Below, one piece after another: positions 12,779 to 47,143 of a DNA stretch of 47,143 nucleotides. The stretch spans positions 1 through 47,143 of IMG/VR virus record IMGVR_UViG_3300030389_002283. One strand, 5' to 3'. The stretch comes from a virus. Every line of letters begins with the position of its first letter. Position 1 is the stretch's first letter. Below the pieces are notes generated by a model. The model made no database searches, was not told the DNA's origin, and was given only the letters and a program-made list of their open reading frames with translations. The translations under genes and the position numbers were made by a program.

Positions 12779-12863
12779 ATATAAAATTGACTGGTATAAG
12801 CTAACAGTTTGGATTTTGATACTGTCATTTTGTTTGATTTTTTGGTATAACATATTGATATGA
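12759..12863 (+). CDS. Tiny membrane protein upstream of csgF
   Basis: A 34-residue ORF not obvious in standard calls: a basic N-terminus (MTKEKIKYKIDWYK) then one hydrophobic helix (LTVWILILSFCLIFWYNILI). It begins inside the preceding gene and its TGA overlaps the csgF ATG (ATGA), which suggests translational coupling into the curli-like cassette. Function unknown; it could be a membrane peptide of the cassette or of lysis. Confidence 0.5.
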   Translation: MTKEKIKYKIDWYKLTVWILILSFCLIFWYNILI

Positions 12864-13345
12864 ACAACACAGAAAAAGATTATTACAAATCAAAAAAAGG
12901 ATGTAGTGTCTTGCTTTTATTATTGCCATTTTTAGCTTTACCAATTTTTGCTGATGAAATGGTACACACTTTCAAAAATCCAAGTTTCAGTGGAATAGGA
13001 ACGTCTGCTCATTACATGACCATTGAAAATCAAGAATTCAATAGAAAGAAAGCAATCAAAGAAGAAATGAAAGCATATCAAGAAGAACTCAAAAGAGAAG
13101 CCGAAAATACAACATTGGCGAGATTCATACGTAATCTTGAAAGCCGAATATATGCACAACTCTCTAGACAATTAGTTGATGCTTTGTTCGGAGAAAATCC
13201 AAGTACAAGTGGTATCTTGGAATTAATGGGAAATACTATTGAATACTATGTTGATGAAGCTCTGGGACTTATTACCCTCAAAATTACTGATAGTGAAGGC
13301 AATGTTACTGAAATTACGCTTCCTATCGGTGATTTCTCTTTCTAG
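12860..13345 (+). CDS. csgF: CsgF-like curli secretion accessory protein
   Basis: A 161-residue secreted protein. A basic start (YYKSKKG) and hydrophobic core (CSVLLLLLPFLALPIFA) form a signal peptide with cleavage near A-D-E. The mature start VHTFKNPSFSGIG parallels the F-R-N-P-N-F-G-G pore-binding N-terminus of bacterial CsgF. The C-terminal part (TIEYYVDEALGLITLKITDS then ITLPIGDF) matches the CsgF pattern Y-x-V-D ... G-x-L-x-L-x-V-T-D ... T-x-I-x-V. In bacteria CsgF plugs into CsgG from outside and couples secretion to fibre nucleation. Immediately followed by csgG, overlapping by 44 bases. No CsgE is seen. Confidence 0.88.
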   Translation: MNNTEKDYYKSKKGCSVLLLLLPFLALPIFADEMVHTFKNPSFSGIGTSAHYMTIENQEFNRKKAIKEEMKAYQEELKREAENTTLARFIRNLESRIYAQLSRQLVDALFGENPSTSGILELMGNTIEYYVDEALGLITLKITDSEGNVTEITLPIGDFSF

Positions 13346-14108
13346 TTGTGCTGCCTTTTTATTTGACCCACTAGAGAATAATATTGTTCCTTTTGCTAAT
13401 CCTGAGGGCGCAGAGATTTTACAAGATGTTTTGCCTGAACTTACTGAGGTAGAAACACCTGCAATAAAACCAACAGTCGCAATATATCCAACAAGTTTTA
13501 CTGACCAAACTGGACAGAGGCTATCAAATAGTCTGTATGCAAGTTTTTCAACAGCAATAACACAAGCGCCACACACATATTTAATCAGCGCTTTACACAA
13601 AGCAGGAAAGGACAACGATGGTTTTTTTACAGTTGTAGAGCGTGTCGGCCTTGATAACTTAACCAAAGAGCGACAGCTTATTAGAACAACAAGAACACAG
13701 TTTGAGGAAGATGATAGCCTTAGGCCTCTTTTATTTGCAGGTTTACTACTTGAAGGTGGTGTGGTAGGGTATGAAAGTAACACCAAATCTGGTGGACAGG
13801 GTGTGAGGTATCTTGGCATAGGATTCTCTAAGCAATACCGAATGGACACTGTGACAGTTTCCTTGCGTCTTGTATCAGTATCTACTGGACAAGTTTTGTT
13901 AGACATTTTGAGCGAGAAAACTCTTTATAGTGCTTCAATATCTCAAGATGTTTTTAGATTTAGAGCTAAAGGAACGAAACTCGTTGAAATTGAAAGTGGC
14001 AATGTTAGGAATGAACAAAAGCGTTTGGCCTTACAGTTGGCAATAGAAACAGCAGTTTTGGAACTTATCTCTAAGGGAAAAGAAAATGGATTTTGGAAAT
14101 ATGATTAA
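13302..14108 (+). CDS. csgG: CsgG-like outer-membrane curli secretion lipoprotein
   Basis: From ATG 13302 the protein is 268 residues (E. coli CsgG is 277). It begins with a short lipoprotein signal peptide and lipobox L-S-S-C (Cys16); the longer upstream frame lies inside csgF and would bury this. The core is unmistakable: KPTVAIYPTSFTDQTGQ, FSTAITQAPHTYLISAL, FTVVERVGLDNLTKERQLIR, GGVVGYESNTKSGGQGVRY then LGIG, and VSLRLVSVSTGQVLL. CsgG forms a nonameric outer-membrane channel for curli subunits. In the pore-constriction stretch aligned by eye with E. coli Y51/N55/F56, only the Phe (F82, S-F-S-T-A) is kept. A signal peptide plus CsgF suggests a working pore. Confidence 0.93.
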   Translation: MLLKLRFLSVISLSSCAAFLFDPLENNIVPFANPEGAEILQDVLPELTEVETPAIKPTVAIYPTSFTDQTGQRLSNSLYASFSTAITQAPHTYLISALHKAGKDNDGFFTVVERVGLDNLTKERQLIRTTRTQFEEDDSLRPLLFAGLLLEGGVVGYESNTKSGGQGVRYLGIGFSKQYRMDTVTVSLRLVSVSTGQVLLDILSEKTLYSASISQDVFRFRAKGTKLVEIESGNVRNEQKRLALQLAIETAVLELISKGKENGFWKYD

Positions 14109-14817
14109 AAAATATTTTATTTTATTCTCTCTACTTGCTTATTGTGGTAATTACCTACTAAGTGATAACGAGGTGTATATCAATCAAGTTGGCGCTACAT
14201 TGAATTTAGATGTAGAACAGCTAGGAAGCTCCAACATTATTGGTGGATTAGATGCTGTTTCTGGTACTATGACAGCATTTGATTTAAATGGCTCTACAAT
14301 GACTGTGGACATAAATCAAATCGGCTCTAGCAACCAGTTTCTAGGTGACATTTTTAGTGATGACTTCACAGGCTTTTTTGAGTTTACTGGTGATTCAAAT
14401 ATATTCAACATAGAGGTTGACCCAACTAACACTTATGGTGCAGACGATGGCAACTTCAATATACAAGTAACTGGTTCAAGCAATGAGTTTGATTTAGATG
14501 TCGCAAAAAATGATTTAGCATCTGGTCTTGACCTAGACTGGATTATTCAAGGAAGCAACAATGAATTTGATTTTGAGATTGATTACGACTTAGGCACAAA
14601 CTACGTTGATGTGGATGGAAGTGATAACACAGTAAACTTCAATGCTGATGGATATGCCGAAGGGTTTTTCTATTTAGACCATACAGGCAGTAGTAGAACA
14701 TTCAATATTACACAATCATCAACTTTAGCTAGTGATTGGCTCAAGATTTTATCTAGTGGCAATAGTGGTACTGTTTGCGTCATTCAAAATGATGGCGGAA
14801 CAAGTACAAGCTGTTGA
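14086..14817 (+). CDS. Secreted curlin-like repeat protein (candidate CsgG/F substrate)
   Basis: A 243-residue protein from ATG 14086 (AAGGGA upstream; ATG 14101 is an alternative). A signal peptide is evident (MIKKYFILFSLLAYCGNYLL). The mature part is acidic and holds seven or eight short repeats around G-S-S-N: NQVGATLN, EQLGSSNII, NQIGSSNQF, FTGDSNIF, VTGSSNEF, IQGSNNEF, VDGSDNTV, HTGSSRTF. These recall the Q-x-G-x-x-N turns of curlin (CsgA/CsgB) but with many Asp residues and fewer Gln ladders. It overlaps csgG by 23 bases. Likely the exported fibre or adhesin subunit; amyloid formation is inferred, not shown. Confidence 0.75.
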   Translation: MDFGNMIKKYFILFSLLAYCGNYLLSDNEVYINQVGATLNLDVEQLGSSNIIGGLDAVSGTMTAFDLNGSTMTVDINQIGSSNQFLGDIFSDDFTGFFEFTGDSNIFNIEVDPTNTYGADDGNFNIQVTGSSNEFDLDVAKNDLASGLDLDWIIQGSNNEFDFEIDYDLGTNYVDVDGSDNTVNFNADGYAEGFFYLDHTGSSRTFNITQSSTLASDWLKILSSGNSGTVCVIQNDGGTSTSC

Positions 14818-15850
14818 TATTGGAAAAGTATTTGAATTAAAAGGTTACGCAAAAGTAATCAGAGAAAAGGATTACAATGCCGAACTAGATTTCGGCATTC
14901 AGTCCTATGACGATGTTAGAACTAGCAATGGCAGGATTGCAATATCTTTTGAAGACCAAAGCACTGTAAAACTAACTGAACATTCAAAATTGGTTATAGA
15001 CGAGTATATCTATGACCCTAACCCATCTAAAAGTAAATTAGCATTAAATTTTGCAAGTGGAACAGTAAGGTTTATTACTGGTAATTTAACTAAAATTGAT
15101 AAAAAAAACATATTTATCAAAACACCTACTGCTGATATTTCTATACGAGGAACAGATTTCACGACGACAGTAAATGAAATAGGTGAGTCTTTAATCATAT
15201 TACTGCCTAATCCAGATGGCTCAGCTAGTGGGGAAATTGAAGTTTCTACAGCTGTTGGCTCAGTAATATTAAATAGACCTTTTGAAGCCACCACAGTTTC
15301 AGTCTATGAAACAATGCCATCTAAACCAGTTATTTTGGATTTAACTTTAGATATTATTGACAATATGCTCATTGTAAGTCCACCTGAGGAGAAAACAGAT
15401 GATGATTTGCAAGGAACACGTCAAGTCAATGGTAACAATCTTTTAGCTTTTGATGATTTAGATATTGACTATCTCGCAGAGGATTTTTTTGAAGATGCTG
15501 ATTTTGAGTTCACAGAGCTAGATATTGATTATTTAAACGTCAATTTTTTTGAAGATTTATTAGATATATTAGAAGAGATTGATGAGTTAGAGGATGAACA
15601 ATTAGACCAACAGGCAACAACGACTGCAATAAAAGGCACTAATGTCGGACAAGACACAACAACGCAAATTACAACAATAATTACTGGCAATCTTATTTCA
15701 TTAAGAAGAAATGTAAATCAATCTGTGCAGTTAGACCTTGATTCAGGCTCTGCTTATACAGTAATCTTTATACAAGATGGAGTATCAAATCAAATAATTA
15801 TTAATGGTGGTGGCTCATCAAAAATAAGAATTTTACAATCATCAGGCTGA
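14732..15850 (+). CDS. FecR-domain periplasmic protein with curlin-like C-terminus
   Basis: A 372-residue protein from GTG 14732, overlapping the curlin-like gene by 86 bases. This start gives a good signal peptide (YLVAIVVLFASFKMMAEQVQA); later starts are possible. Residues ~28-150 are a FecR domain (VFELKGYAKVIREKDYN, DVRTSNGRIAISFEDQSTVK, then IKTPTADISIRGTDFTTTV). Residues ~240-275 contain a near-duplicate acidic repeat (LDIDYLAEDFFED and LDIDYLNVNFFED). The last ~45 residues end in QDGVSNQIIINGGGSSKIRI, resembling the curlin-like repeats next door. It probably works with the cyclase encoded four bases downstream, perhaps as periplasmic sensor or surface protein. Confidence 0.85.
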   Translation: MIGSRFYLVAIVVLFASFKMMAEQVQAVDIGKVFELKGYAKVIREKDYNAELDFGIQSYDDVRTSNGRIAISFEDQSTVKLTEHSKLVIDEYIYDPNPSKSKLALNFASGTVRFITGNLTKIDKKNIFIKTPTADISIRGTDFTTTVNEIGESLIILLPNPDGSASGEIEVSTAVGSVILNRPFEATTVSVYETMPSKPVILDLTLDIIDNMLIVSPPEEKTDDDLQGTRQVNGNNLLAFDDLDIDYLAEDFFEDADFEFTELDIDYLNVNFFEDLLDILEEIDELEDEQLDQQATTTAIKGTNVGQDTTTQITTIITGNLISLRRNVNQSVQLDLDSGSAYTVIFIQDGVSNQIIINGGGSSKIRILQSSG

Positions 15851-15854
15851 GCAA

Positions 15855-17642
15855 ATGAAATTAAGAAAAGTTTTTTATGGCTTTTTGTTGGCTTTATTTT
15901 TTTGTGTGCCTCTTGCATATAACCTTAAACCATTAACAATCTTAAAACTAAAAACCTTTGACACTTTTGTTAAAGAGCAACAACCCTCTGGATATTTTAC
16001 AGTTATTGATATAACAGAGGAAGATGTGCAGAGTTTTGGTGGATATCCTTTTCCTAGAAAAATATTAGGAGAAAAAGCAGCTTTGATAATGGAGCGAGGC
16101 GCACTTGGAGTTGGTTTTGTAATTTCATTTGTGGACGCTGATGTTTTTGGTGGTGATGAACTGTTTAGGGAACAAATGAAAGCGATTCCCTCTGCGGTCA
16201 TTGCCACCTTTGAATATGATAATAAAATCTACCCAGAGCCGACAGGAGTTGTGGTGTTTGGCCAAGAGGCAGAAGGCATAAAACTTAAAGGACACATACC
16301 GACGATTGATGAGCTTTCAGGTCTGAGTCAGGGAATGGTTTCTGCACCTTTATCAGATGATGGATTAGTGCGTACGCTTCCACTCCTCTTTCAAACGCCA
16401 GATGGTTGGATTCCCACATTTGGCACACAAGTTCTAAAAACTTTGGCAGGTAGTGACACGTTTATAATTAAAACAAACGAAAGTGGTATAGAAGAAATTA
16501 CTGTCAAAGGCATACCACCAAGCAAAGTTGATAGATATGGAAGAAAGTGGATTAGTTGGGTGGAAACTCCTAAAACTACGTTACAAGAATTGGATGTTGC
16601 AGGGAAATTTGTTTTTGTTGGTATAACAGCTAAAGGTGTAATGCCACAACTTGCTACAGCGAAAGGTGAGCTTCTTTATCCTCATTACATACAAACTGCT
16701 TTAGCTGAGTCAATTTTGATTACTGATAGTCCAAATATTCCATATTGGCATTTATCATTAGAATTAGCTGTAGTTTTTTTGTCAGTGCTTTTTATTTGGC
16801 TTCTAACACAATTTTTAGGCATCACATGGGGTTTAGTATCAAGTAGTGCAATATTTTTAGGCACAGGCTATTTTGGATGGTCAATGATACAAAAAGGTCT
16901 GTTAATTGATGTAACATGGGCGCTTATAAGTAGTTTTGTGACTGGTAGTATTAGTTTTTACTTAAATTTCAGAACGCAGTATAAATTAAGACAACAAATC
17001 AAAAAACAATTTGAGCATTACTTAGACCCAAGACAAGTCAAAAGACTGCAACAAAATCCAGAGTCATTAAAACTCGGTGGAGAGAAGAAATACTGCACAT
17101 ATTTATTTACTGATGTAAGAGGTTTTACACCTTTGACAGAAAAACTTACTCCTGAGGATGTCACACTAATTATGAATAGAGTTTTAACTGTCCAAGCAAA
17201 TGCAGTTAAGAAAAATGGTGGCATGGTTGATAAATACATTGGAGATGCGATGATGGCAGTTTTCGGCGCTCCACTAAGTATTACAGAGCCAGAGGATAAA
17301 GCCATAGACACAATGATTGATATTCTTGATGGCGTAAATCTTTTGAATTATGAGTTGGAAAATGAAGGTCTGCCTACAATAAAAATTGGTGTTGGTATCA
17401 ATTCTGGAGAGTCTATTGTAGGAAATATGGGCTCAGATACTAGATTTGATTACACTTGTATTGGTGATGCTGTAAATGTTGCTGCACGTTTAGAGTCAAA
17501 TACAAAAGAGTTAGGCGTATCAAATCTTATTGGCGAAGCAACAGCAAAAAACACTACATACAAATTAGAAGAATTAGATGGTATTATGGTTAAAGGCAAA
17601 AGCCAAAAGCTGAATGTCTTTACATGGAGATTTAATTTATGA
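15855..17642 (+). CDS. CHASE2-domain class III adenylate cyclase
   Basis: A 595-residue membrane signalling enzyme, very unusual for a phage. Residues 1-22 are an N-terminal anchor, ~25-290 a periplasmic CHASE2 sensor (FTVIDITEEDVQSFGGYPFPR is typical; ends G-E-L-L-Y-P-H-Y-I-Q-T-A), ~300-375 three transmembrane helices, then a linker and the cyclase domain (~405-560). All catalytic positions are visible: metal-binding D420 (FTDVRGF) and D464 (KYIGDAMMAVFG), adenine-selecting K460 and D532 (FDYTCIGDAVN), and N541/R545 (NVAARLES). It should make cAMP from ATP. FecR genes often neighbour such cyclases in bacteria. The TGA overlaps the holin ATG, so lysis and signalling genes are coupled. Confidence 0.95.
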   Translation: MKLRKVFYGFLLALFFCVPLAYNLKPLTILKLKTFDTFVKEQQPSGYFTVIDITEEDVQSFGGYPFPRKILGEKAALIMERGALGVGFVISFVDADVFGGDELFREQMKAIPSAVIATFEYDNKIYPEPTGVVVFGQEAEGIKLKGHIPTIDELSGLSQGMVSAPLSDDGLVRTLPLLFQTPDGWIPTFGTQVLKTLAGSDTFIIKTNESGIEEITVKGIPPSKVDRYGRKWISWVETPKTTLQELDVAGKFVFVGITAKGVMPQLATAKGELLYPHYIQTALAESILITDSPNIPYWHLSLELAVVFLSVLFIWLLTQFLGITWGLVSSSAIFLGTGYFGWSMIQKGLLIDVTWALISSFVTGSISFYLNFRTQYKLRQQIKKQFEHYLDPRQVKRLQQNPESLKLGGEKKYCTYLFTDVRGFTPLTEKLTPEDVTLIMNRVLTVQANAVKKNGGMVDKYIGDAMMAVFGAPLSITEPEDKAIDTMIDILDGVNLLNYELENEGLPTIKIGVGINSGESIVGNMGSDTRFDYTCIGDAVNVAARLESNTKELGVSNLIGEATAKNTTYKLEELDGIMVKGKSQKLNVFTWRFNL

Positions 17643-24713: not shown

Positions 24714-24741
24714 TTGCAATTTCAAACACATTAATTATAAT
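24714..24741 (+). promoter_or_regulatory. Sigma70-like promoter for the Cro/ParB/TET operon
   Basis: TTGCAA (24714-24719), a 16-base spacer and TATAAT (24736-24741) point rightward to the Cro-like gene. The last bases of the -10 overlap the palindrome at 24740, so a protein bound there would block initiation. Confidence 0.6.
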
Positions 24742-24754: not shown

Positions 24755-24795
24755 AAAAAAAAGTCTCAGGGCATGACAGCCCTTTGGTGTTTTCC

Positions 24796-25005
24796 ATGAA
24801 GTTAAAAGCATACCTCAAAAAAGAAAAACTGACACAACATGAGTTTATTGATATTGTTGATATGGCGACTGGAAAAAAAATACCACAAGGAACTTTAGCA
24901 AAATGGATTTTAGAGGTAAGAATACCAAGAAAAAGTGAGATGGAATTATTACACTCTATTACCTCTGGCGAGGTTCAGCCTAACGACTTTTATAATTTGG
25001 AGTAA
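24796..25005 (+). CDS. Cro/CI-like helix-turn-helix regulator
   Basis: A 69-residue protein from ATG 24796 (TTG and GTG codons upstream are less likely). It has KLKAYLKKEKLTQHEFIDIV, then KKIPQGTLAKWILEVRIPR and a final E-M-E-L-L-H-S-I-T, the layout of an HTH_3 Cro-like fold. Expected to dimerise on short palindromes. It is the first rightward early gene, 40 bases from an ATTCC-N5-GGAAT site, and is the likely reader of that site, though that is inferred. The remaining operon genes follow it closely. Confidence 0.78.
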   Translation: MKLKAYLKKEKLTQHEFIDIVDMATGKKIPQGTLAKWILEVRIPRKSEMELLHSITSGEVQPNDFYNLE

Positions 25006-25008
25006 AAA

Positions 25009-25635
25009 ATGTCATTTACAGTAAAACTTATATCTATTGATGATTTAATAGAATACGAAGATAACCCAAGAAATAATGATGAGGCTGTAGCAAAAGTAGC
25101 AGACAGTATCAAAGAGTTTGGTTTCAAAGTGCCAATTGTCGTTGATGAGGACATGATTATTTTGGCAGGTCATACAAGGTTAAAAGCAGCACGTTTATTA
25201 GGTTTAAAAAAAGTGCCTGTGCATCAAGCAAATGATTTAACAGAAGAACAGCGCAACGCATTCAGGATTATGGACAACAAATCTGGTGAAGCAGCTGATT
25301 GGGATAATGAATTGTTATCAAAAGAGTTTCAAAAATTAGCTGAAACTGATTTTGATATGCTTATGACAGGTTTTGATGATAAAGAAATTGCAAAGCTGAC
25401 GTCAGATATTTTAGAGTTTAAACCCTCAGATGATGTGAAATTTGAAGAAGGTTTTGCTAAACTTGATGATATACAGCCAAGTAATGTAAAAATGGTCAAT
25501 TTGTTTTTGAATCAAGACAATGAGCCGATTTTTCAAGAGATGATAGGAGTGCTTAAAGAAACTTGGGGACTTGAAAATTTGACTGATGCTGTTTATGAGG
25601 CTGTAAAAAAATGTTATGAAAACCCTGAAACTTAA
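25009..25635 (+). CDS. ParB N-terminal-domain protein
   Basis: A 208-residue protein. Residues ~1-110 are a ParB/Sulfiredoxin-fold domain: LISIDDLIEYEDNPRNNDE, VAKVADSIKEFGFKVPIVVD, and the P-loop-like motif ILAGHTRLKAARLLGLKKVP. The C-terminal half is helical and lacks a ParB DNA-binding domain. Phage proteins of this type often travel with DNA modification genes and could choose the target or work as a nucleotide-driven switch. Immediately follows the Cro-like gene and overlaps the TET/JBP gene by 20 bases. Confidence 0.9.
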   Translation: MSFTVKLISIDDLIEYEDNPRNNDEAVAKVADSIKEFGFKVPIVVDEDMIILAGHTRLKAARLLGLKKVPVHQANDLTEEQRNAFRIMDNKSGEAADWDNELLSKEFQKLAETDFDMLMTGFDDKEIAKLTSDILEFKPSDDVKFEEGFAKLDDIQPSNVKMVNLFLNQDNEPIFQEMIGVLKETWGLENLTDAVYEAVKKCYENPET

Positions 25636-26533
25636 ACCACATTACTCTTTAGAGGAAGCAAAAAAAAGAGCAGGTGAATTCGTCACCGAAGATGATTTTG
25701 ATTTACTGATTGAGGACGATTGTGATGCATACGATGAAAATGGTGAGCCACTATTTTTTTTCAGGAAAAATGCAATACCAACCAATTTATGTCGTGATGC
25801 GTATTACGTTCTAAGACACGCAGCAACACCAACAAATAATAGAGGCATGGCAGGTGGTATTATATCTGAGGAAACAAAGGCAGAGTGGGATATTGGTGAT
25901 GTGAGTAAAGTGCAAGTAAGACTAAGAAAGAAAGATGGTACGCTTTCAAACACAAGGAGAGCTAATACAGTAAACTCTGGTATTGTTGGATTTTTTGATA
26001 GAAATGCTAGATTTCCATATTGCAGACAGACAGCTTGGTATGAGAAAAACTTTATGCAGTTTAAAGACGCTTATCCATATATAAAATATATTGATAAACT
26101 TTTTGCAGAGGCCTGTCCTGAAAGATATAAGGCACAAAAAGATATGGCAAATAAAACCAATAAAGACTTTGTCATACAAGATACTGCCTTCACAACAGTG
26201 ACTGTAAACAAAAATTTCAGAACTGCTTTGCATACAGATGCAGGTGATTATGAAAAAGGTTTAGGAAATTTAGCAGTTTTAGAGGCAGGGCAATACAAAG
26301 GTGGTTATACTGTTATACCTAGATACAGAGTCGGCTTCAATGTCAGGTCAGGTGATGTGTGTTTCTTCAATGTGCATGAGTATCATGGCAATACTGAGCT
26401 AAAGAGCAAATTGGCATATGAAAGAATAAGTATTGTGTGTTATTACAGAGAAAATATGTTTCAATGCTTAAATGCTGAAAAAGAATTACAAAGAGCTAAA
26501 GCAAGACAAAGAGGCGATAGTCTTAGTGCCTAA
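25616..26533 (+). CDS. TET/JBP-family 2-oxoglutarate/Fe(II) DNA oxygenase
   Basis: A 305-residue protein. The catalytic jelly-roll is at ~190-280: NKNFRTALHTDAGDYEKGLG gives H206-x-D208, then LAVLEAGQYKGGYTVIPRYR and VGFNVRSGDVCFFNVHEYHG with the second His (H254 or H257), and ERISIVCYYREN with the 2-oxoglutarate Arg (R270 or R278). This is the pattern of phage TET/JBP enzymes, which hydroxylate the methyl of 5-methylcytosine or thymine. The N-terminal ~180 residues are less conserved. It lies in a ParB-TET-amidotransferase-GNAT-transferase-kinase operon. Whether the substrate is T or 5mC is unknown; no methyltransferase gene is seen. Confidence 0.85.
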   Translation: MKTLKLKPHYSLEEAKKRAGEFVTEDDFDLLIEDDCDAYDENGEPLFFFRKNAIPTNLCRDAYYVLRHAATPTNNRGMAGGIISEETKAEWDIGDVSKVQVRLRKKDGTLSNTRRANTVNSGIVGFFDRNARFPYCRQTAWYEKNFMQFKDAYPYIKYIDKLFAEACPERYKAQKDMANKTNKDFVIQDTAFTTVTVNKNFRTALHTDAGDYEKGLGNLAVLEAGQYKGGYTVIPRYRVGFNVRSGDVCFFNVHEYHGNTELKSKLAYERISIVCYYRENMFQCLNAEKELQRAKARQRGDSLSA

Positions 26534-27180
26534 TGTGTGCGGTTTTGGGATTACATAGCCAAGATTACATAGACCTTAATCTATTAAAAAAAATATTGGT
26601 GCAGTCAATGATTAGAGGCAAACACGCTACTGGTATTGCATATTTAGAAAATGATGAAATTAAATACAAAATTATTCCTAGCCATGCAGAGAGTTTTGAT
26701 ATACCTGATATTGCAACAAAATATCTTATTGCACATTGTCGTTATAGCACAAGCGATTTGGAGTATAATCAACCAATAGTAAGTGATAAATGGGCTGTTG
26801 TTCATAATGGCGTTATCACACAGGCACACCCAAGCACATGGCCTGATTTATATGGTTATGAGTTCCAAACAAAATGCGATAGCGAAATAGTCCTTCGTTC
26901 TTTGGAAGATGATAAACACCCACTTAATCTTAATGGCTCTATGGCTTGTGCAGTTTTAGAAAATTCTGACTCAGGCGCTTTACATTTTTTTAGAAACGAA
27001 CAAAGACCTTTATATTTTACTGAGCTAGGCACAACAACGATTGTAGCTTCAACTCGTGATATTTTGGCTCGTTCTGGCATAAATCAAGCTACGAAAACAC
27101 AAGCATGTTACACTTATAAAACTCAAAACAATCAGACGATGAAACACAAGGTACGTGATGTTATTGAAGATTTACAATGA
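26533..27180 (+). CDS. Class II glutamine amidotransferase (Ntn hydrolase)
   Basis: A 215-residue stand-alone glutaminase domain. MCAVLGLHS places the catalytic Cys at position 2, RGKHATGIAYL is the R-G-x-x-x-x-G motif, HCRYSTSDLEYNQPIV and WAVVHNGVI (H-N-G) and KCDSEIVL (D-S-E) are the other family motifs. It would release ammonia from glutamine or act as an amide-bond enzyme. In this operon it might transfer nitrogen onto a modified base. TAATG junction with the oxygenase gene, and it overlaps the GNAT gene by 23 bases. Confidence 0.9.
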   Translation: MCAVLGLHSQDYIDLNLLKKILVQSMIRGKHATGIAYLENDEIKYKIIPSHAESFDIPDIATKYLIAHCRYSTSDLEYNQPIVSDKWAVVHNGVITQAHPSTWPDLYGYEFQTKCDSEIVLRSLEDDKHPLNLNGSMACAVLENSDSGALHFFRNEQRPLYFTELGTTTIVASTRDILARSGINQATKTQACYTYKTQNNQTMKHKVRDVIEDLQ

Positions 27181-27775
27181 AGCTGAAACAGTAAAAGTAT
27201 TAGCACAACAAAGCGAAGGCAGATACACTAAATTTTTCAGAGCTGCTCATAGCCTCTGGAAAAGATTCAAAAACTATGAAAGACACCCACCTTATGTTTT
27301 GCTAAATGAAGAAAATGTAGAAGTTGCGATGATTTACTCTACTTTTAGTGATAAAACCAAATATACCAATCTTTATGAAATCTTTGCATTTGAGGGTCAT
27401 TCAGGAAAAGGTTATGGAAAAAAGGCTTGGGAGTTATGGCTTCAAGCTATGTATGTACGTGGCGCACACCGATTAAAACTATCATGCACACCTGACTCAA
27501 TAGGCTTTCACATGAAAAATGGTCTTGTGTTTTGGTCAGTAGATAGGTCAGGCTCATTGAGGTCAGACCAACCAATTATGCCTTCCATACAAGAACAAAA
27601 AGAGCTAAGAGAACGTGCAATTATTACACCTGATTTAGTTTTGCCTAATCAACAGGTCAGAAAAAGGCTCAAAGGTGAGGAACTAGAAAACTTAGATTTA
27701 TCACAAAACAAATTATTGCAAACTTACGAGGCCATACAAAAAGTAGGAGATTTTTGGCTGCGCAAACATTTATAA
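27158..27775 (+). CDS. GNAT-family N-acyltransferase
   Basis: About 205 residues from ATG 27158; GTG 27155 is also possible. The core motif A EGHSGKGYGKKAWELWL and the following HRLKLSCTPDSIGFHMKNGL are typical of GNAT acetyl-CoA-binding folds. N-terminal ~70 residues include RFKNYERHPPYVLLNEENVE; the C-terminal ~60 residues are helical. It may acylate an amine introduced on a hypermodified base, or modify protein. Sits between amidotransferase and transferase-like genes. Confidence 0.85.
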   Translation: MLLKIYNEAETVKVLAQQSEGRYTKFFRAAHSLWKRFKNYERHPPYVLLNEENVEVAMIYSTFSDKTKYTNLYEIFAFEGHSGKGYGKKAWELWLQAMYVRGAHRLKLSCTPDSIGFHMKNGLVFWSVDRSGSLRSDQPIMPSIQEQKELRERAIITPDLVLPNQQVRKRLKGEELENLDLSQNKLLQTYEAIQKVGDFWLRKHL

Positions 27776-28729
27776 ATGGATTTGAGGTTAGAACAAAATA
27801 GACAAAAGGCTTTTATAGACTGGTCTGTTTGGTCTTTAAATTACAAAGATTGTGACCCTGCATTGTGGATGCTTAATTATTTATTTGACAGATATGAGCA
27901 TAATATAGAGCAAAAATACTGGATTGCTTGGATATATGGCACTACTTATCATCTACCGACTGCTTGGATTATTTGGAATGAGTTTCCAGATTTTGAGTTA
28001 GTTGATTATGACAGATTGAAAGACTGGAATGACAAAAACTATAAAAGATTGCGCTATCAAACAGACACAAAATGGAATAAAGGACACCTACCAGAGCAAT
28101 TTGCCTCTTATCAAAAGTGGGTAGCACATTCAAACGCTTTAGGCACACAAAGGTCTAAGTTTAAAAATCTTGGACATAATTTTTCTATGTTATGGAACAG
28201 TATTAACCAATTACATAAGTTTGGACGTTACAGCACATGGTTTTATATGCAAACATTAAATGATTGTGTCGGTCATCGTGTTGTGCCTACTAATTTGAAA
28301 TTAGATGATTACTCAGGCTCTAGGAGTCATAGGAATGGTCTTTGCTATGCGTTAGCACGTGATGATTTGATAGATAAAAAACTAACAAATACACAGTTGC
28401 ATGAGTTACAACAAGGCGCACAGTTTTTGCAAGACCAAATAAACGCTAAAGGTTTTGATATGGATTTCTACGAGATGGAAACGCTTTTATGTAGTTTCAA
28501 AAAAATATTCAGAACTTCAAGAGGTAGATACTTAGGCTATTACTTAGATAGACAAGCAGAGGAAATAAAAAAAGTAGAGGCTGATGGTTGGCATGGTATT
28601 GATTGGCAAGTTTTCTGGGATGGTAGGAAAGAGTGTTTGCATAAAAAATTGTCAGCATCAAGGAGCATTAGAGAAGATTTATACAAAGTTTTTCTCAATA
28701 CAGGGACTTTGGAATATGGCACAGTTTAA
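27776..28729 (+). CDS. Candidate DNA-base transferase (alpha-GPT pyrophosphorylase/HMUDK-helical-like)
   Basis: A 317-residue, mostly helical protein rich in Trp and Tyr (FIDWSVWSLNYKDCDPALWM; YWIAWIYGTTYHLPTAWIIW; FGRYSTWFYMQTLNDCVG; GSRSHRNGLCYALARDD). The G-R-Y/F-x-x-x-x-Y-x-x-Q-x-L and R-N-G-L-x-x-A-L-x-R-D patterns resemble, by eye, the glycosylase-like helical domain of thymine-hypermodification enzymes (alpha-glutamyl/putrescinyl thymine pyrophosphorylases, also the helical part of 5-hmdU DNA kinases). It would replace a pyrophosphate on 5-hydroxymethyl-U with an amine. It is followed by a kinase gene, overlapping by 14 bases. Family call is moderate. Confidence 0.55.
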   Translation: MDLRLEQNRQKAFIDWSVWSLNYKDCDPALWMLNYLFDRYEHNIEQKYWIAWIYGTTYHLPTAWIIWNEFPDFELVDYDRLKDWNDKNYKRLRYQTDTKWNKGHLPEQFASYQKWVAHSNALGTQRSKFKNLGHNFSMLWNSINQLHKFGRYSTWFYMQTLNDCVGHRVVPTNLKLDDYSGSRSHRNGLCYALARDDLIDKKLTNTQLHELQQGAQFLQDQINAKGFDMDFYEMETLLCSFKKIFRTSRGRYLGYYLDRQAEEIKKVEADGWHGIDWQVFWDGRKECLHKKLSASRSIREDLYKVFLNTGTLEYGTV

Positions 28730-29264
28730 AGCAGTAGCAATTGGTGGTGTTCCTGCAACTGGGAAATCAACACTAATGAAAGCCATAATTGAGAAACTTA
28801 AAAAAACTTCATCTCCTACCACTTGGAAATTTGGTCTTTTGAATGGCCTTATGTTTGACAATATCTGTATAATCGGTACGTATCCTGCTGAACAGACTTT
28901 TGGTGGCACAGATAGACTATCTATGGCTGCGCCTAAAGATATGCAAAAATTTATTGATTGGGGTGAAAGAAGTATTTTATTTGAAGGTGATAGATTGTTT
29001 ACCAAAAATATTCTAGAAAATTTAATACAGAAATATGATACGAAAATAATTGTGTTGGATTGCGATGAGCAGACTTTAGACGAAAGACACAAAGCAAGAG
29101 GTGATAGTCAAACAGAAAAATTTCTTAAAGGGAGAGCTACTAAAATACAAAACATATTAAAGAGCGAGGCCATCAAGATAAGAACAGAGATATATACACT
29201 GTCAAGACTGAAATTGACCGACGACCTCGCAGACCAAGTTATTTCATTTTTTCGCCAAAGTTAA
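28716..29264 (+). CDS. P-loop kinase, candidate 5-hydroxymethyl base DNA kinase
   Basis: A 182-residue kinase from ATG 28716. The Walker A motif GGVPATGKSTLMKAI is at the start, D-R-L-S near the middle, SILFEGDRLFTK as a Walker-B-like strand, KIIVLDCDEQTLDERHKARGD, and KGRATKIQNIL as a lid-like helix. Nucleoside/DNA kinase fold. Next to the transferase-like gene and TET/JBP oxygenase it fits a 5-hmU (or 5-hmC) DNA kinase that activates the hydroxymethyl group. Its last 26 bases overlap the end of the convergent primase-helicase gene. Substrate not shown. Confidence 0.7.
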   Translation: MAQFKAVAIGGVPATGKSTLMKAIIEKLKKTSSPTTWKFGLLNGLMFDNICIIGTYPAEQTFGGTDRLSMAAPKDMQKFIDWGERSILFEGDRLFTKNILENLIQKYDTKIIVLDCDEQTLDERHKARGDSQTEKFLKGRATKIQNILKSEAIKIRTEIYTLSRLKLTDDLADQVISFFRQS

Positions 29265-41616: not shown

Positions 41617-41967
41617 AGTGCAGGTTTTCATCATTTCACAATAGAACAAGGTGCTACCTTTAGCAAAGTTTTAACGCTTAAAGATAGTTCCAACACAGTA
41701 ATAAATCTTACAGGCTACGCTAGTGCAGAGATGGACTTACGTGCCGAACAAGACTCATCATCAGAAATATTAACACTAACAACAGCTAATGGCAGGATAG
41801 CATTAGGTGGCTCTGCAGGAACTGTTACTTTAACTATATCGGCTTCTGACACTGCAAACCTGAGTGTGCAAGATGGCGTATATGATTTAGAGATTGTTGA
41901 TGGCTCTAGCAATATTTTTAGGATTTTAGAAGGAACTTTTAGCGTAAGAGGTAATGTAAGCAGATAA
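41614..41967 (+). CDS. Small beta-rich structural protein
   Basis: A 117-residue protein with FHHFTIEQGATFSKVLTLKD, DLRAEQDSSSEILTLTTANG, and GVYDLEIVDGSSNIFRILEG. The pattern F-x-x-x-x-G-A-T-F plus a late G-x-Y-D-L-E resembles small baseplate or fibre-anchor proteins (BppU N-terminal-like) in marine phages. Its TAA overlaps the fibre ATG, so it may attach the fibre to the virion. Confidence 0.65.
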   Translation: MSAGFHHFTIEQGATFSKVLTLKDSSNTVINLTGYASAEMDLRAEQDSSSEILTLTTANGRIALGGSAGTVTLTISASDTANLSVQDGVYDLEIVDGSSNIFRILEGTFSVRGNVSR

Positions 41968-44900
41968 TGGCCATAAGTAGAGTCACAGTATCAGACACCT
42001 CAACAATCAATTCTGTCACTATTACAGATACCAATGCAATATCTGTAGTCACAGTTGGAACACAAGGTCTTAGTGGTCCAAACGCTATACTCGGCAGAAG
42101 TGTGGTGGACTCTACTGCAAGTACCTCAGGCTCACTTTTAATATACGACCATGACAATACACGATGGGAAGATAGTCAAAGCACAAGGTCACAGTCGCTG
42201 ACAGCTAAGTTATTCAATTTACAATTTACTACTGGTGGCGCAACTGTTACTCAAATTTTTGATGAGGATGACATGTCATCAAATAGTGCAACAGGCCTTG
42301 TCACACAACAATCAATCAAAGCCTATGTGGATGCGCAATTAACAGCACAGGATTTGGACTTTCAAGGCGACTCAGGTGGCGCTTTATCCATTGATTTAGA
42401 TAGTGAAACGCTTGATATTGCAGGTGGCACAGGTATTGATACAAGTGGCTCTGGTAATACAATTACAGTTGCCATAGACGCAACTGTTGCCACACTCTCT
42501 GGCGCACAGACTTTGACCAATAAAACAATTGATGCTGACAATAATACCCTTTCAAACATTGAAGTAGATAATTTAAAGTCAGGTGTGTTAGATACTGATA
42601 TATCTTCAGTAGCAGGCACAGATACAACTTTAGCTTCAGCAAAAGCAATCAAAACATATGTGGATGCACAGCTTACTGCACAAGACCTAGATTTTCAGGG
42701 TGATTCAGGAGGTGCATTGTCAATAGACTTAGACTCGGAAACATTAGACATAGCAGGTGGTACTGGTATAGATACTGCAGGCTCAGGTAATGTCCTAACT
42801 GTTAGCATTGATTCCACAGTCGTAACTTTATCAGGCACACAAACACTAACTAACAAAACTTTAACAAGTCCAAAAATAAATGATTCAAATGCAATAACTG
42901 CAACAGGTGCAGAGATAAACATAATTGATGGTGATACTTCTGAATCAGCAGTAGTTATAGTTGATGCTGACCGATTTATTGTCAATGATAGTGGCACAAT
43001 GAAGCAATTAGCAGCTTCAAGAATATCAACATATGTCGCAGGCACAACAGAAACACTAACAAACAAAACAATTAATGCCGACAACAACACAGTTTCAAAT
43101 ATAGAGGTAGATAACTTCAAAGCCTCTGCCATAATCTTGGAATCAGAGGGTATAGGCAGTAATGATAATGACACCACAATTCCAACCTCAGCTGCAGTTA
43201 AAGATTATGTAGATACACAGATTACAGCAGAGGATTTAGATTTAACGTCTGATAGTGGCACAATTGCAATAGACCTTGATAGCGAAACGCTCACAATTGC
43301 AGGTGGCGAAGGAATAGACACATCAGCCACAGGAAACACTCTTACAATAGCTGCCGAAGATGCAACAGCCTCAAATAAGGGTGTGGCCTCTTTTGATTCA
43401 ACAGATTTTACAGTTTCATCAGGTGCAGTCACAGTCAATGCTGAAAGAGTTCAAGATATCGTTGGTGCAATGGTATCTAGCAACACGGAAAATGGTATAT
43501 CAGTTACTTATGAAGATAGTGATGGCACATTAGATTTTGATGTTGCAGACCCAACACTAACTTTTACAGGTGATGTTACTGGCTCTGGCACAATTACAAA
43601 TCTTGCAGATACTTCTTTTGCCCTAACAATTGCAGCAAACTCAGTTGCACTCGGCACAGATACAACAGGAAACTTTGTTCAGGCAATTTCAGGCACTTCA
43701 AATGAGATTGAAGTTAGTGGAAGTGGCTCAGAAGGAGCAACAGTAACAATTGGTCTGCCTGATGATGTGACTATCGGAAACGACTTAATTGTTACAGGTA
43801 ATCTTACTGTTCAAGGAAGCACAACCACATTAAATACTGCGACATTGGATGTGGAAGATAAAAATATTACGCTAAATAAAGGCTCAGGTGATACTAGTGG
43901 CTCTGCTGATGGTGCAGGTATCACTATACAAGATGCGGTAGATGCATCTACTGACGCTACCATTTTGTGGGACGCAAGTGCTGATATATTCAAAACTTCA
44001 CATGGCTTAAGAATAAATGGAGATACCAAAACATTTTCTGTTGGCGCAGGTGGTGATTTCTCACTTGTTCATAATGGCACTGATACTTTTATGGCTAACT
44101 CTACTGGTCATTTTTACATAACCACTACCTCAGATGATAAAGACATAATTTTTAGAACAGATGATGGCTCTGGTGGTGTCGCTGAATACATAACAGTTGA
44201 TGGTAGTCAAGAACGAACTGTTTTTCATAAACCTATAAGAATTGATGATAATGTTGGTTTTAATGTCGGCACAGGAAGTGACTTCCAAATAAGCCATAAT
44301 GGTACAAATAGCATTATTGCAAACCACACAGGAACATTATTCATAACACAAAATGTTGATGATGGTGATTTACAGCTTAGAAGTGACGATGGCTCTGGTG
44401 GAACTACGTCCTATATAACTTTAGATGGTAGTGCAGTTCGTACTGAGTTCCCTAAAGACACAAAACACTCAGATGATGTTAAGGCTTTATTCGGTGGTGG
44501 TAATGACTTAGAAATTTTCCACAGTTCATCTAACAATCATTCAGTAATAAAAGAATCTGGTAGTGGTAATTTAAGAATAAATGCAGATGATTTGATAATT
44601 TATAATACTGCTGTAAATGAAACTAAAGCATCATTTTTAACAGATGGTAGTGTCAGGTTGTTTCATAATGATATTAAAAAGTTTGAAACAACCTCAACAG
44701 GTATAGATGTTACTGGAGCAGTTGTTGCCACAAGCCTAGATATTAGTGGAGACGTTGATGTAGATGGCACTCTTGAAGCAGATGCGATAACTGTCAATGG
44801 CGAAACACTTGCCGAAGTAATAGCTGACACAGTGGGAGCAATGGTCGGCTCAAACACCGAAACAGGAATAACAGTAACATTCAATGATAGTGACAACACT

Positions 44901-47143
44901 TTGGATTTTGTTGTTGGCACATTAAACCAAGATACGACTGGAACTGCTGCTCTTGCAACACAGGTCACAGTTTCGGCAAATAATTCTACAGACGAAACAA
45001 TATTCCCAGTCTTTGTAGATGGTGCAACAGGCTCACAGGGTTTAGAAACAGACACAGGCTTCACTTACAATCCCTCAACTGGTTTAATCTCCTCTGCAGG
45101 CCTTACAGCGTCTGGAACAATAACATTTGGCAGTATATCTGATGGCAGTATAACAATTACTGCTTTTGTTGATGAGGATAACATGGCCTCTAACTCAGCT
45201 TCCTTAGTACCAACACAACAATCTGTAAAAGCCTACGTTGATGCCGAAGTATCAGCTGCAGGTGGTATGTCAAGTTTCATTATGGAAGATGATGATGGCA
45301 CAGAAGTAACAATCAATAACAATAAAGAAGTTAAATTTATTGGCTCAGGCATAACAACAAACTTTACTGATACAAGCACAGGCTCTGATAGTGACCCATT
45401 TGATTTGACCTTTACAATTGACGCTGCACAAACAGGTATAACCTCTATCCTTGCTACAGATTTAAAGATTGGAGAGGACGACCAAACAAAAATAGATTTT
45501 GAAACAGCAGACGAAATACATTTCTATGCTGCAAATGCAGAACAAGTTTTTGTATCTGATGGCGTTTTTGGACCACAAACAGACAGTGACGTAGATTTAG
45601 GAACAAGCTCAGTAAGATTCAAAGACGCTTACTTTGATACCTTGAATACAAGTGGAACTATTACATCAGGAGCAAATAGTGGAGTTATAAAAGAAATAGG
45701 AAGTGACTTATCATTAGTACAAGGAGCAGTTGGTTTAAGAATTAATGATGCAGCTTCAGCAATCTCACCAACCACAGCTAGTGCTAATAATGATGATGCT
45801 GTTGATTTGGGTGTCAGTAATATTAGATTCAAGGATATTTATATATCAGGAAAACTCACTAATGACGGGAGCGGAGGCGTATCGTTAGACGCTGCAGGAG
45901 ATATTACTCTTGATGCTGATGGTCAAGATGTTCTTTTCAAAGATGGTGGCACACAATTCGGCTCTATCAGAAAAAATGGAAACAATATTCAACTCATGGC
46001 CTCCATACAAGATGGTGATATTACATTTCATGGTGATGATGGTGGCTCAGCTATCACTGCCCTTACACTTGATATGTCAGATGCAGGTACAGCAACTTTT
46101 AACCACGATATAAAATTAGCTGATAATGGGAAAGCTGTATTTGGTGATGGCAGCGATTTAAATATATTCCATGATGCAACTGATGGCAAAATAGAAAATG
46201 AAACTGGTGACTTAAGATTTTTACAAAAAGCAAATGATGGTGACATTATATTTTCAAGTGATGATGGCTCTGGTGGCACTATTCAATATTTCAGAGTTGA
46301 TGGTGGTAATGAAATTGTAGAATTTAACAGAGATGTAAAACTTGGTGATAACGTAGATTTGAAGGTTGGAACTGGTAACGATTTACAGTTATTGCATGAT
46401 GGAACAAATTCAATTATTAAAAATACTTCTACAGGAAATCTAATTATCAGAAATACAGTTGATGATGGAGATTTGATATTGCAGTCAGATGATGATTCTG
46501 GTGGTGTTACAAACTATATAACTTTAGATGGTAGTGGAGCACAAACAATATTTGGACAAGATGCAAAATTTGGTGATAGTGTCCTATTAAAATTTGGAGC
46601 TAGCAATGACCTGCAGATAAAACATGACGGCTCAAATTCATTTATAGACCAAGTTGGTGTTGGTAGCCTTAACATACGTAATACAACTGATGACGCAGAT
46701 ATTATTCTATCCTCTGATGATGGTAGTGGTGGTGTTACAGCTTATTTATCACTTGATGGCTCTGAAGGTAATATTTTTTCTAGTGTCAATTTCAGAGCAG
46801 TTGATAACAAATTGATTGGTGTTGGTAATGCACATGACCTAAGACTAAAACATGATGGCACAGATTCTATAATTCAAAATGAAACAGGTAGCCTAAGTAT
46901 TATAAATAATACTGATGACGGAGATATTATTTTTAAAACAGATGATGGCTCAGGCAGTAATACAGCTTATTTAACTCTTGATGGTAGTGCTACAACTATC
47001 AACTTTGCAAAAAATGCCACATTTCCAGATGATGTAAAAATAGTATCAGGCACAGGTGGAGATTTAGAAATATTCCACAATGGTTCAAATAGCGTAATTA
47101 AAGACACAGGCACAGGCAATCTAAACTTAATATCAAATGGTGC
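41967..47143 (+). CDS. Giant repeat fibre, N-terminal part (3'-partial; continues at base 254)
   Basis: Starts at ATG 41967 (MAISRVTVSDTSTINSV) and stays open for 5177 bases to the window end. Joining 47143 to base 254 gives about 2083 residues. Residues ~115-520 contain long Asp/Ser-rich repeats (YVDAQLTAQDLDFQGDSGG twice, 111 residues apart, then a variant). The second half holds many beta repeats of 75-76 residues with the core GNDLQLLHDGTNSIIKNxTGN plus DDGDxxLxSDDGSGG. The S74 domain at the far end makes this an autoprocessed trimeric fibre. It lies between capsid and connector genes rather than after the tail tip. Confidence 0.9.
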   Translation, partial: MAISRVTVSDTSTINSVTITDTNAISVVTVGTQGLSGPNAILGRSVVDSTASTSGSLLIYDHDNTRWEDSQSTRSQSLTAKLFNLQFTTGGATVTQIFDEDDMSSNSATGLVTQQSIKAYVDAQLTAQDLDFQGDSGGALSIDLDSETLDIAGGTGIDTSGSGNTITVAIDATVATLSGAQTLTNKTIDADNNTLSNIEVDNLKSGVLDTDISSVAGTDTTLASAKAIKTYVDAQLTAQDLDFQGDSGGALSIDLDSETLDIAGGTGIDTAGSGNVLTVSIDSTVVTLSGTQTLTNKTLTSPKINDSNAITATGAEINIIDGDTSESAVVIVDADRFIVNDSGTMKQLAASRISTYVAGTTETLTNKTINADNNTVSNIEVDNFKASAIILESEGIGSNDNDTTIPTSAAVKDYVDTQITAEDLDLTSDSGTIAIDLDSETLTIAGGEGIDTSATGNTLTIAAEDATASNKGVASFDSTDFTVSSGAVTVNAERVQDIVGAMVSSNTENGISVTYEDSDGTLDFDVADPTLTFTGDVTGSGTITNLADTSFALTIAANSVALGTDTTGNFVQAISGTSNEIEVSGSGSEGATVTIGLPDDVTIGNDLIVTGNLTVQGSTTTLNTATLDVEDKNITLNKGSGDTSGSADGAGITIQDAVDASTDATILWDASADIFKTSHGLRINGDTKTFSVGAGGDFSLVHNGTDTFMANSTGHFYITTTSDDKDIIFRTDDGSGGVAEYITVDGSQERTVFHKPIRIDDNVGFNVGTGSDFQISHNGTNSIIANHTGTLFITQNVDDGDLQLRSDDGSGGTTSYITLDGSAVRTEFPKDTKHSDDVKALFGGGNDLEIFHSSSNNHSVIKESGSGNLRINADDLIIYNTAVNETKASFLTDGSVRLFHNDIKKFETTSTGIDVTGAVVATSLDISGDVDVDGTLEADAITVNGETLAEVIADTVGAMVGSNTETGITVTFNDSDNTLDFVVGTLNQDTTGTAALATQVTVSANNSTDETIFPVFVDGATGSQGLETDTGFTYNPSTGLISSAGLTASGTITFGSISDGSITITAFVDEDNMASNSASLVPTQQSVKAYVDAEVSAAGGMSSFIMEDDDGTEVTINNNKEVKFIGSGITTNFTDTSTGSDSDPFDLTFTIDAAQTGITSILATDLKIGEDDQTKIDFETADEIHFYAANAEQVFVSDGVFGPQTDSDVDLGTSSVRFKDAYFDTLNTSGTITSGANSGVIKEIGSDLSLVQGAVGLRINDAASAISPTTASANNDDAVDLGVSNIRFKDIYISGKLTNDGSGGVSLDAAGDITLDADGQDVLFKDGGTQFGSIRKNGNNIQLMASIQDGDITFHGDDGGSAITALTLDMSDAGTATFNHDIKLADNGKAVFGDGSDLNIFHDATDGKIENETGDLRFLQKANDGDIIFSSDDGSGGTIQYFRVDGGNEIVEFNRDVKLGDNVDLKVGTGNDLQLLHDGTNSIIKNTSTGNLIIRNTVDDGDLILQSDDDSGGVTNYITLDGSGAQTIFGQDAKFGDSVLLKFGASNDLQIKHDGSNSFIDQVGVGSLNIRNTTDDADIILSSDDGSGGVTAYLSLDGSEGNIFSSVNFRAVDNKLIGVGNAHDLRLKHDGTDSIIQNETGSLSIINNTDDGDIIFKTDDGSGSNTAYLTLDGSATTINFAKNATFPDDVKIVSGTGGDLEIFHNGSNSVIKDTGTGNLNLISNG
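46368..47143 (+). repeat. Tandem 225-228 bp repeats in the fibre gene
   Basis: Repeat cores begin near 46368, 46596, 46824 and 47049, one every 225-228 bases (75-76 codons), with older copies at about 44041, 44262, 44490 and 46140. Each encodes G-x-x-D-L-x-x-x-H-D/N-G-T/S-N/D-S, then T-G-x-L, then D-D-x-D-I-I-x-x-S/T-D-D-G-S-G. The window start matches this array with one unit missing. Confidence 0.85.

Follow-up and report, generated by a model that had tools for sequence, protein, structure and literature searches.

The window analysed here comprises all 47,143 bases of the IMG/VR record IMGVR_UViG_3300030389_002283, the genome of a marine tailed phage in which seven rightward open reading frames, placed between two leftward blocks at 24796-29264, form an operon around an oxygenase of the TET/JBP family and probably serve to hypermodify the phage DNA. 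The terminase, portal, prohead protease and capsid genes lie to the right of the genome and the tape measure and tail genes to the left; between them lie recombination and replication genes that point leftward. Both ends of the window (1-1328 and 41954-47143) interrupt a single, very long repetitive reading frame, and the final ~240 bases of the window resemble its start with ~92% identity. Judging from these ends, the record probably represents a circularly permuted genome from which only part of a repeat-rich tail gene is missing, and because it is near-complete, the absence of a gene from the window is informative. A DNA-level search of phages with the window sequence returned zero matches.

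A conserved seven-gene operon

The seven genes either overlap shortly or are separated by gaps of 0-30 nt. An earlier reading of the sequence (the original prediction) had described them as a single rightward operon with overlapping ends, and both the coordinates and the + strand hold. Its family calls were checked by Pfam hidden Markov model (HMM) search, and matches to ParB_N, Tet_JBP, GATase_6, Acetyltransf_1 and P-loop kinase families were obtained. The genes, with lengths in amino acids (aa), are as follows:

24796..25005, + strand: small helix-turn-helix (HTH) protein, 69 aa (HTH_3 E 0.1, below cut-off)
25009..25635, + strand: ParB-like protein, 208 aa (ParB_N 4.7e-8; phrog_620 2.3e-53)
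25616..26533, + strand: TET/JBP Fe(II)/2-oxoglutarate (2OG) dioxygenase, 305 aa (Tet_JBP 6e-25)
26533..27180, + strand: class II (N-terminal nucleophile, Ntn) glutamine amidotransferase, 215 aa (GATase_6 3.5e-12)
27164..27775, + strand: GNAT acyltransferase, 203 aa, with a possible alternative start GTG at 27155 (Acetyltransf_1 7.6e-6)
27776..28729, + strand: amino acid:DNA transferase (ADDT), 317 aa (ADDT 4e-21)
28716..29264, + strand: small P-loop kinase, 182 aa (AAA_18 3e-6, Ploopntkinase3 2e-5)

Viral contigs were searched with the ADDT and TET proteins as queries, which yielded 56 and ten loci, respectively. The gene order of the operon recurs in dozens of viral contigs at ~30-85% protein identity and is kept even at 30-50%, a recurrence which, on the sequences compared, is far beyond chance. 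ADDT loci were counted as testable for TET, glutaminase and ParB when they extended at least 3.6 kb upstream (n=31), and for the kinase when they extended at least 600 bases downstream (n=52). TET was found upstream on the same strand in 31/31 loci, the glutaminase in 30/31 and ParB in 29/31, while the kinase was present in all 52. An Amidoligase_2-like gene was detected between the glutaminase and GNAT genes in 11 of the 31 loci, and 11 of 12 aligned variant proteins gave the Pfam match (best E 2.1e-8). An LMWPc-type phosphatase occurs in three ADDT loci, two of which have a TET-associated glycosyltransferase too. The same order of ParB, TET, ADDT and kinase is seen in the actinophages Fortunato and Prince (Mycobacterium) and LittleMunchkin (Gordonia), whose core proteins are ~20-26% identical to their window counterparts. 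When a genome collection was searched with ADDT, just two fragmentary matches were obtained, on contigs of metagenome-assembled genomes and without prophage context.

Fold and catalytic residues of the operon enzymes

The oxygenase scored 87.8 bits for the Tet_JBP domain against a curated Pfam cut-off of 34.9. It has the HxD...H Fe(II) triad and the 2OG-binding Arg (H206-x-D208, H257 and R270), and these four residues are invariant across the window, pelagiphage, Cr30, Melnitz-type and actinophage TETs, T4-like members included. Since the TET and ADDT profiles gave no significant match when run against the sequences of solved structures, both proteins were examined by fold comparison. The AlphaFold model of the oxygenase, built on a 32-sequence alignment (mean predicted local distance difference test score, pLDDT, 93.0), matched TET2 with a Z score of 21.4, NgTET1 of Naegleria with 19.6, CMD1 with 19.0 and CcTet with 17.8. 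The top 16 structural matches were all TET2, NgTET1, CMD1 or CcTet (Z 21.4-17.5), while AlkB and FTO reached at most 13.8. TET/JBP against prolyl-hydroxylase had been set beforehand as the test of the assignment, and the ranking, headed by TET enzymes only, bears out the TET/JBP family and disfavours a prolyl-hydroxylase or AlkB identity.

The protein earlier termed transferase/pyrophosphorylase-like and helical is an ADDT, with 76.2 bits against a curated Pfam cut-off of 26.2. Its AlphaFold model (pLDDT 96.1) shows a fold like that of helix-hairpin-helix (HhH) glycosylases, and its top structural match is PUGT (gp46 of phage PaMx11, 8z2m; Z 18.2, root-mean-square deviation 3.1, 240 residues), the solved 5-phosphomethyl-2'-deoxyuridine glycinyltransferase. 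The next matches were a queuine salvage enzyme (10.2) and 8-oxoguanine (Ogg-type) glycosylases (≤9.3). W49, G150-R151, G188, E235, C239 and R284 are invariant in 10 diverse ADDTs, the ViI and actinophage members included. These two folds bear on whether DNA is the target at all. The GNAT, glutamine amidotransferase and P-loop kinase superfamilies have other roles too, and one may imagine an operon that acts on RNA, proteins or free nucleotides through an oxygenase of AlkB or prolyl-hydroxylase type; the exclusively TET ranks at the head of the structural comparison and the steady linkage with ADDT, which resembles a transferase acting on 5-phosphomethyl-deoxyuridine in DNA, make this very improbable.

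The kinase has the Walker A P-loop GGVPATGKST, and the aligned family conserves the motifs GGxPAxGK[ST]T, GTDxLS, FEGDRLF and RH..R.DNQ. The AAA_18 and Ploopntkinase3 scores of the window protein fall slightly below cut-off, and members of its family reach 1e-72; HMUD2 (PF18747) matched one of 31 family members (E 0.0015). The protein is predicted to be a 5-hydroxymethyl-pyrimidine DNA kinase. A viral-locus search with the kinase as query confirmed no relatives, and this search was too narrow, since the kinase is present in every testable related locus. In the glutaminase, M1-C2, R28-G29, H68-x-R70-Y-S-T, N92-G93 and D116-x-E118 are invariant among 29 aligned proteins, with Cys2 as the nucleophile, and the domain stands alone without a synthase domain, its closest named models being AsnB and PurF. 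No radical SAM or pyridoxal phosphate (PLP) enzyme was seen in the operon. Taken by family, fold and conserved gene order, the proposal of a hypermodification operon started by a TET/JBP enzyme is strongly supported.

Thymine or cytosine as the oxidised base

The original prediction had seen neither a cytosine methyltransferase nor a hydroxymethylpyrimidine synthase, and whole-record HMM searches of the near-complete genome agree with it. The C5-cytosine methyltransferase family (PF00145) is absent from the window and from 39 further TET/ADDT records, among them the complete HTVC112P, P12024L, Cr30, DLP6, S-CBWM1 and C48C1, and was detected in Melnitz-3, which served as positive control. Fortunato and Prince were searched for a C5-methyltransferase and none was found, and none occurs in the 31 testable ADDT loci. 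Thymidylate synthase (PF00303) and ThyX (PF02511) are likewise absent from the window. For the window genome, a cytosine route with a methyltransferase of the phage's own is rejected on the PF00145 result, and a pre-replicative supply of 5-hydroxymethyluracil (5hmU) by a ThyA or ThyX homologue on the lack of PF00303 and PF02511. Divergent ThyX matches (~35 bits) do occur in other TET phages, at G033:45500-45946 (the record of locus L068) and at 49878-50366 of Stenotrophomonas phage DLP6, and could be altered flavin-dependent pyrimidine-modifying enzymes.

The Melnitz-type TET loci present the opposite picture. Wherever enough sequence was available, a C5-methyltransferase lay nearby (61/61) and ADDT was never found (0/61), and the Melnitz-related TETs form a separate branch of the tree with 100/100 support. 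In Vi01, phiEa2809, Vibrio D510 and Serratia 3M, ADDT is accompanied by a divergent thymidylate-synthase homologue (PF00303), and a search for TET in them found none. By this comparison of gene content, TET occupies the place of the hydroxymethylase in the known 5hmU pathway. Thymine is favoured as the substrate because the C5-methyltransferase is lacking, because the Melnitz clade contrasts in just this respect and because TET is exchanged for the thymidylate-synthase homologue. We hold it probable that TET, kinase and ADDT together constitute a thymine route of post-replicative hypermodification of the phage DNA.

Several observations weigh against this. D211 lies three residues after the metal Asp, at the position that contacts the base in NgTET1 (D234) and TET2 (N1387). 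Window-clade and cytosine-type phage TETs both have Asp there, and actinophages have Asn. This position was considered as one that might discriminate thymine from cytosine and it fails in this role; because the Asp is common to both clades, sequence alone cannot settle the TET substrate. In Cr30, TET and ADDT coexist with a strong and apparently canonical thymidylate synthase, so the exchange is non-absolute. The small kinase family also stands beside C5-methyltransferase/TET pairs, in 26 of 73 Melnitz-type loci, and for this reason the kinase gives no thymine-specific evidence. All 31 ADDT loci were found through their similarity to a single protein and hence are non-independent. Host-made 5-methylcytosine (5mC) may, moreover, be a minor substrate of TET. 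The direct thymine oxidation favoured by the original prediction thus emerges as the best-supported reading, through the absent methyltransferase, the ADDT of PUGT type, a kind of transferase that elsewhere belongs to the 5-hydroxymethyldeoxyuridine pathway, and the replacement of the thymidylate-synthase homologue by TET, and falls short of proof at the shared Asp. As to the kinase itself, its presence near C5-methyltransferase/TET pairs (L083, L085, L087, L105, L111, L138 and others) suggests that 5-hydroxymethylcytosine may be phosphorylated in the phages concerned.

The same shared Asp, and the pairing of Melnitz-clade TETs with C5-methyltransferases, at some loci with the same kinase family, are what speak for an oxygenase that oxidises 5mC, either of host origin or from a methyltransferase that escaped detection, with kinase and ADDT then acting on 5-hydroxymethylcytosine. 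The phage TETs characterised by Burke et al. 2021 reportedly act on 5mC. We nevertheless consider this unlikely for the window. No C5-methyltransferase is encoded there or in the 39 other records, ADDT and C5-methyltransferase were never together in the loci examined, and the nearest solved fold to ADDT is an enzyme of 5-phosphomethyl-deoxyuridine. Sparse host 5mC, besides, would hardly repay a six-enzyme pathway.

Proposed pathway, known systems and related loci

With thymine as the inferred substrate, the TET/JBP enzyme would oxidise selected thymines of the phage DNA at their methyl group, giving 5hmU, the P-loop kinase would phosphorylate the 5hmU hydroxyl to create a leaving group, and ADDT would swap the phosphate for a nitrogen nucleophile. 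This nucleophile could be ammonia, which the stand-alone class II glutaminase would release from glutamine in a PurF-like logic to yield 5-aminomethyl-deoxyuridine, or alternatively a free amino acid. GNAT would acylate the new amine, and in relatives the Amidoligase_2 enzyme would form additional amides. ParB may direct the enzymes to their target or recognise the mark, and the modification likely protects the DNA from host nucleases.

Between the two nucleophiles the evidence is finely divided. Ammonia is favoured because the glutaminase is present in the window without an evident ATP-dependent ligase and because all but one of the 31 testable relatives keep it near ADDT; we regard ammonia as the ADDT nucleophile with roughly even confidence. 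That ADDT instead attaches a free amino acid, on which the glutaminase and GNAT, together with the amidoligase in loci that have one, would carry out amidation or acylation to give a larger, peptide-like base, is nearly an even prospect in our judgement. The family name of ADDT and the glycine precedent of PUGT point to it, as do the actinophage ParB-TET-ADDT-kinase runs, which have no glutaminase, and the Amidoligase_2 gene beside the glutaminase in a subset of loci. In the window itself, however, there is no amidoligase, thus no evident ATP-dependent ligase to put ammonia on a carboxylate, and the constancy of the glutaminase at ADDT loci suggests that ammonia is coupled to ADDT directly. 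The complete sequence of in-place thymine oxidation, phosphorylation, PurF-like amination with ammonia and N-acylation by GNAT, with an amidoligase extending the product in relatives, which would give marine phages a family of acyl-aminomethyl-uracil bases, is put forward tentatively, as a possibility somewhat short of likely.

In M6, ViI and phi W-14 the pathway starts from 5-hydroxymethyldeoxyuridine (5hmdU), a DNA kinase follows and amine transfer comes last (PMC6449724). M6/PaMx11, ViI, phi W-14 and SP10 resemble the window in using a DNA kinase and then an ADDT/PUGT-type transferase, in tailoring the base post-replicatively and in passing through a 5hmU intermediate (PMC6449724). These phages are thought to make the triphosphate 5hmdUTP before replication, whereas the window would oxidise finished DNA. 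TET is missing from the ViI-type phages examined, which have the thymidylate-synthase homologue, and the window shows the opposite; its kinase is small and Ploopntkinase3-like in contrast to HMUD2 in Vi01, and its operon has the glutaminase and GNAT instead of a radical SAM or PLP enzyme. With kinetoplastid base J, made by JBP1/JBP2 and a glucosyltransferase, the window shares a TET/JBP-family oxygenase and the predicted hydroxylation of thymine in DNA (PMC10276184); it differs in that no J-binding domain was seen and that amination and acylation would replace glucosylation, although some relatives have TET-associated glycosyltransferases. The phage C5-methyltransferase/TET systems of Melnitz type share the TET/JBP family, the catalytic residues and adjacent tailoring genes, and differ in the methyltransferase that is always adjacent, the ADDT that never is, and the separate TET branch. 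The actinophage run is alike in the four core genes and lacks the glutaminase and GNAT.

The original prediction had called the route undescribed or rare, and undescribed is an overstatement. TET/JBP-generated hydroxymethyl-pyrimidines are said to have been predicted as starts of phage base hypermodification by Iyer et al. 2013, and the TET homologue of a Mycobacterium phage, Prince gp2, already bears the GenBank annotation 'thymidine hydroxylase'. No report of thymine oxidation by a phage TET was found in the literature searched, which is weak evidence as coverage was incomplete. The present analysis adds the fold match to PUGT, the finding that C5-methyltransferase and ADDT exclude each other, the replacement of a thymidylate-synthase-type enzyme by TET, the tailoring set of glutaminase, amidoligase and GNAT, and the presence of the core in culturable phages. 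To our knowledge, hypermodified phages with a known 5hmU route make the base at the nucleotide level before replication. The cassette points to a second 5hmU route, on finished DNA, and because it requires no special nucleotide pool, it lies within the means of small phages (30-50 kb). The many marine viral contigs that share the cassette suggest that phages of the ocean commonly have modified thymine in their DNA. Since the core is available in culture, in phages of Mycobacterium and Gordonia, a single nucleoside analysis could show whether any phage TET oxidises thymine. The TET, kinase and transferase would also be of practical use for introducing functional groups into DNA.

Some related loci carry other tailoring genes. 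In the complete 32 kb Pelagibacter phage HTVC112P (L012:7501-9097), ParB and TET are followed by an FkbM-family methyltransferase, without a C5-methyltransferase, and an O-methylated hydroxymethyl-uracil is possible. In Nonlabens phage P12024L (L013:8001-10266), TET precedes a gene annotated beta-glucosyl-HMC-alpha-glucosyltransferase and an N6_N4-type methyltransferase, again without a C5-methyltransferase, so that a base-J-like glucosylated thymine is conceivable. Caulobacter phage Cr30 (L014:11794-18267) has TET, ADDT and a below-cut-off TET-associated glycosyltransferase; genes for cysteine dioxygenase and inositol-1-phosphate synthase lie nearby and could supply unusual groups for base modification. 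In actinophages, TET homologues are misannotated as 'queuine tRNA-ribosyltransferase' (L076:1258-3462 and related) and the kinase is misnamed 'terminase small subunit' or 'adenylate kinase'; the Fortunato record has no annotation for TET and extends the ADDT start across that gene.

Two candidate control elements precede the operon:

24714..24741, + strand: candidate sigma-70-like promoter TTGCAA-16-TATAAT (10/12 matches), directly upstream of the operon
24768..24783, no strand: inverted repeat AGGGCATGACAGCCCT, between the promoter and the first gene

Promoter-like sites in the region are no commoner than in shuffled sequences, and position is the main argument for this candidate. The inverted repeat is a candidate operator or attenuator. 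The first gene product had been called a Cro-like regulator; homologues stand at the equivalent position in many related loci, which leaves it a candidate autoregulator of the operon, and its HTH character draws slight support from the HTH_3 match. On the tail side of the genome, genes for CsgF (5e-16), CsgG (1.7e-43) and FecR (1.6e-11) are clustered at 12860-17642 together with CHASE2 and adenylate/guanylate cyclase genes (1.5e-21, 1e-17), and we read this stretch as a phage-borne island of curli-secretion-like and signalling functions.

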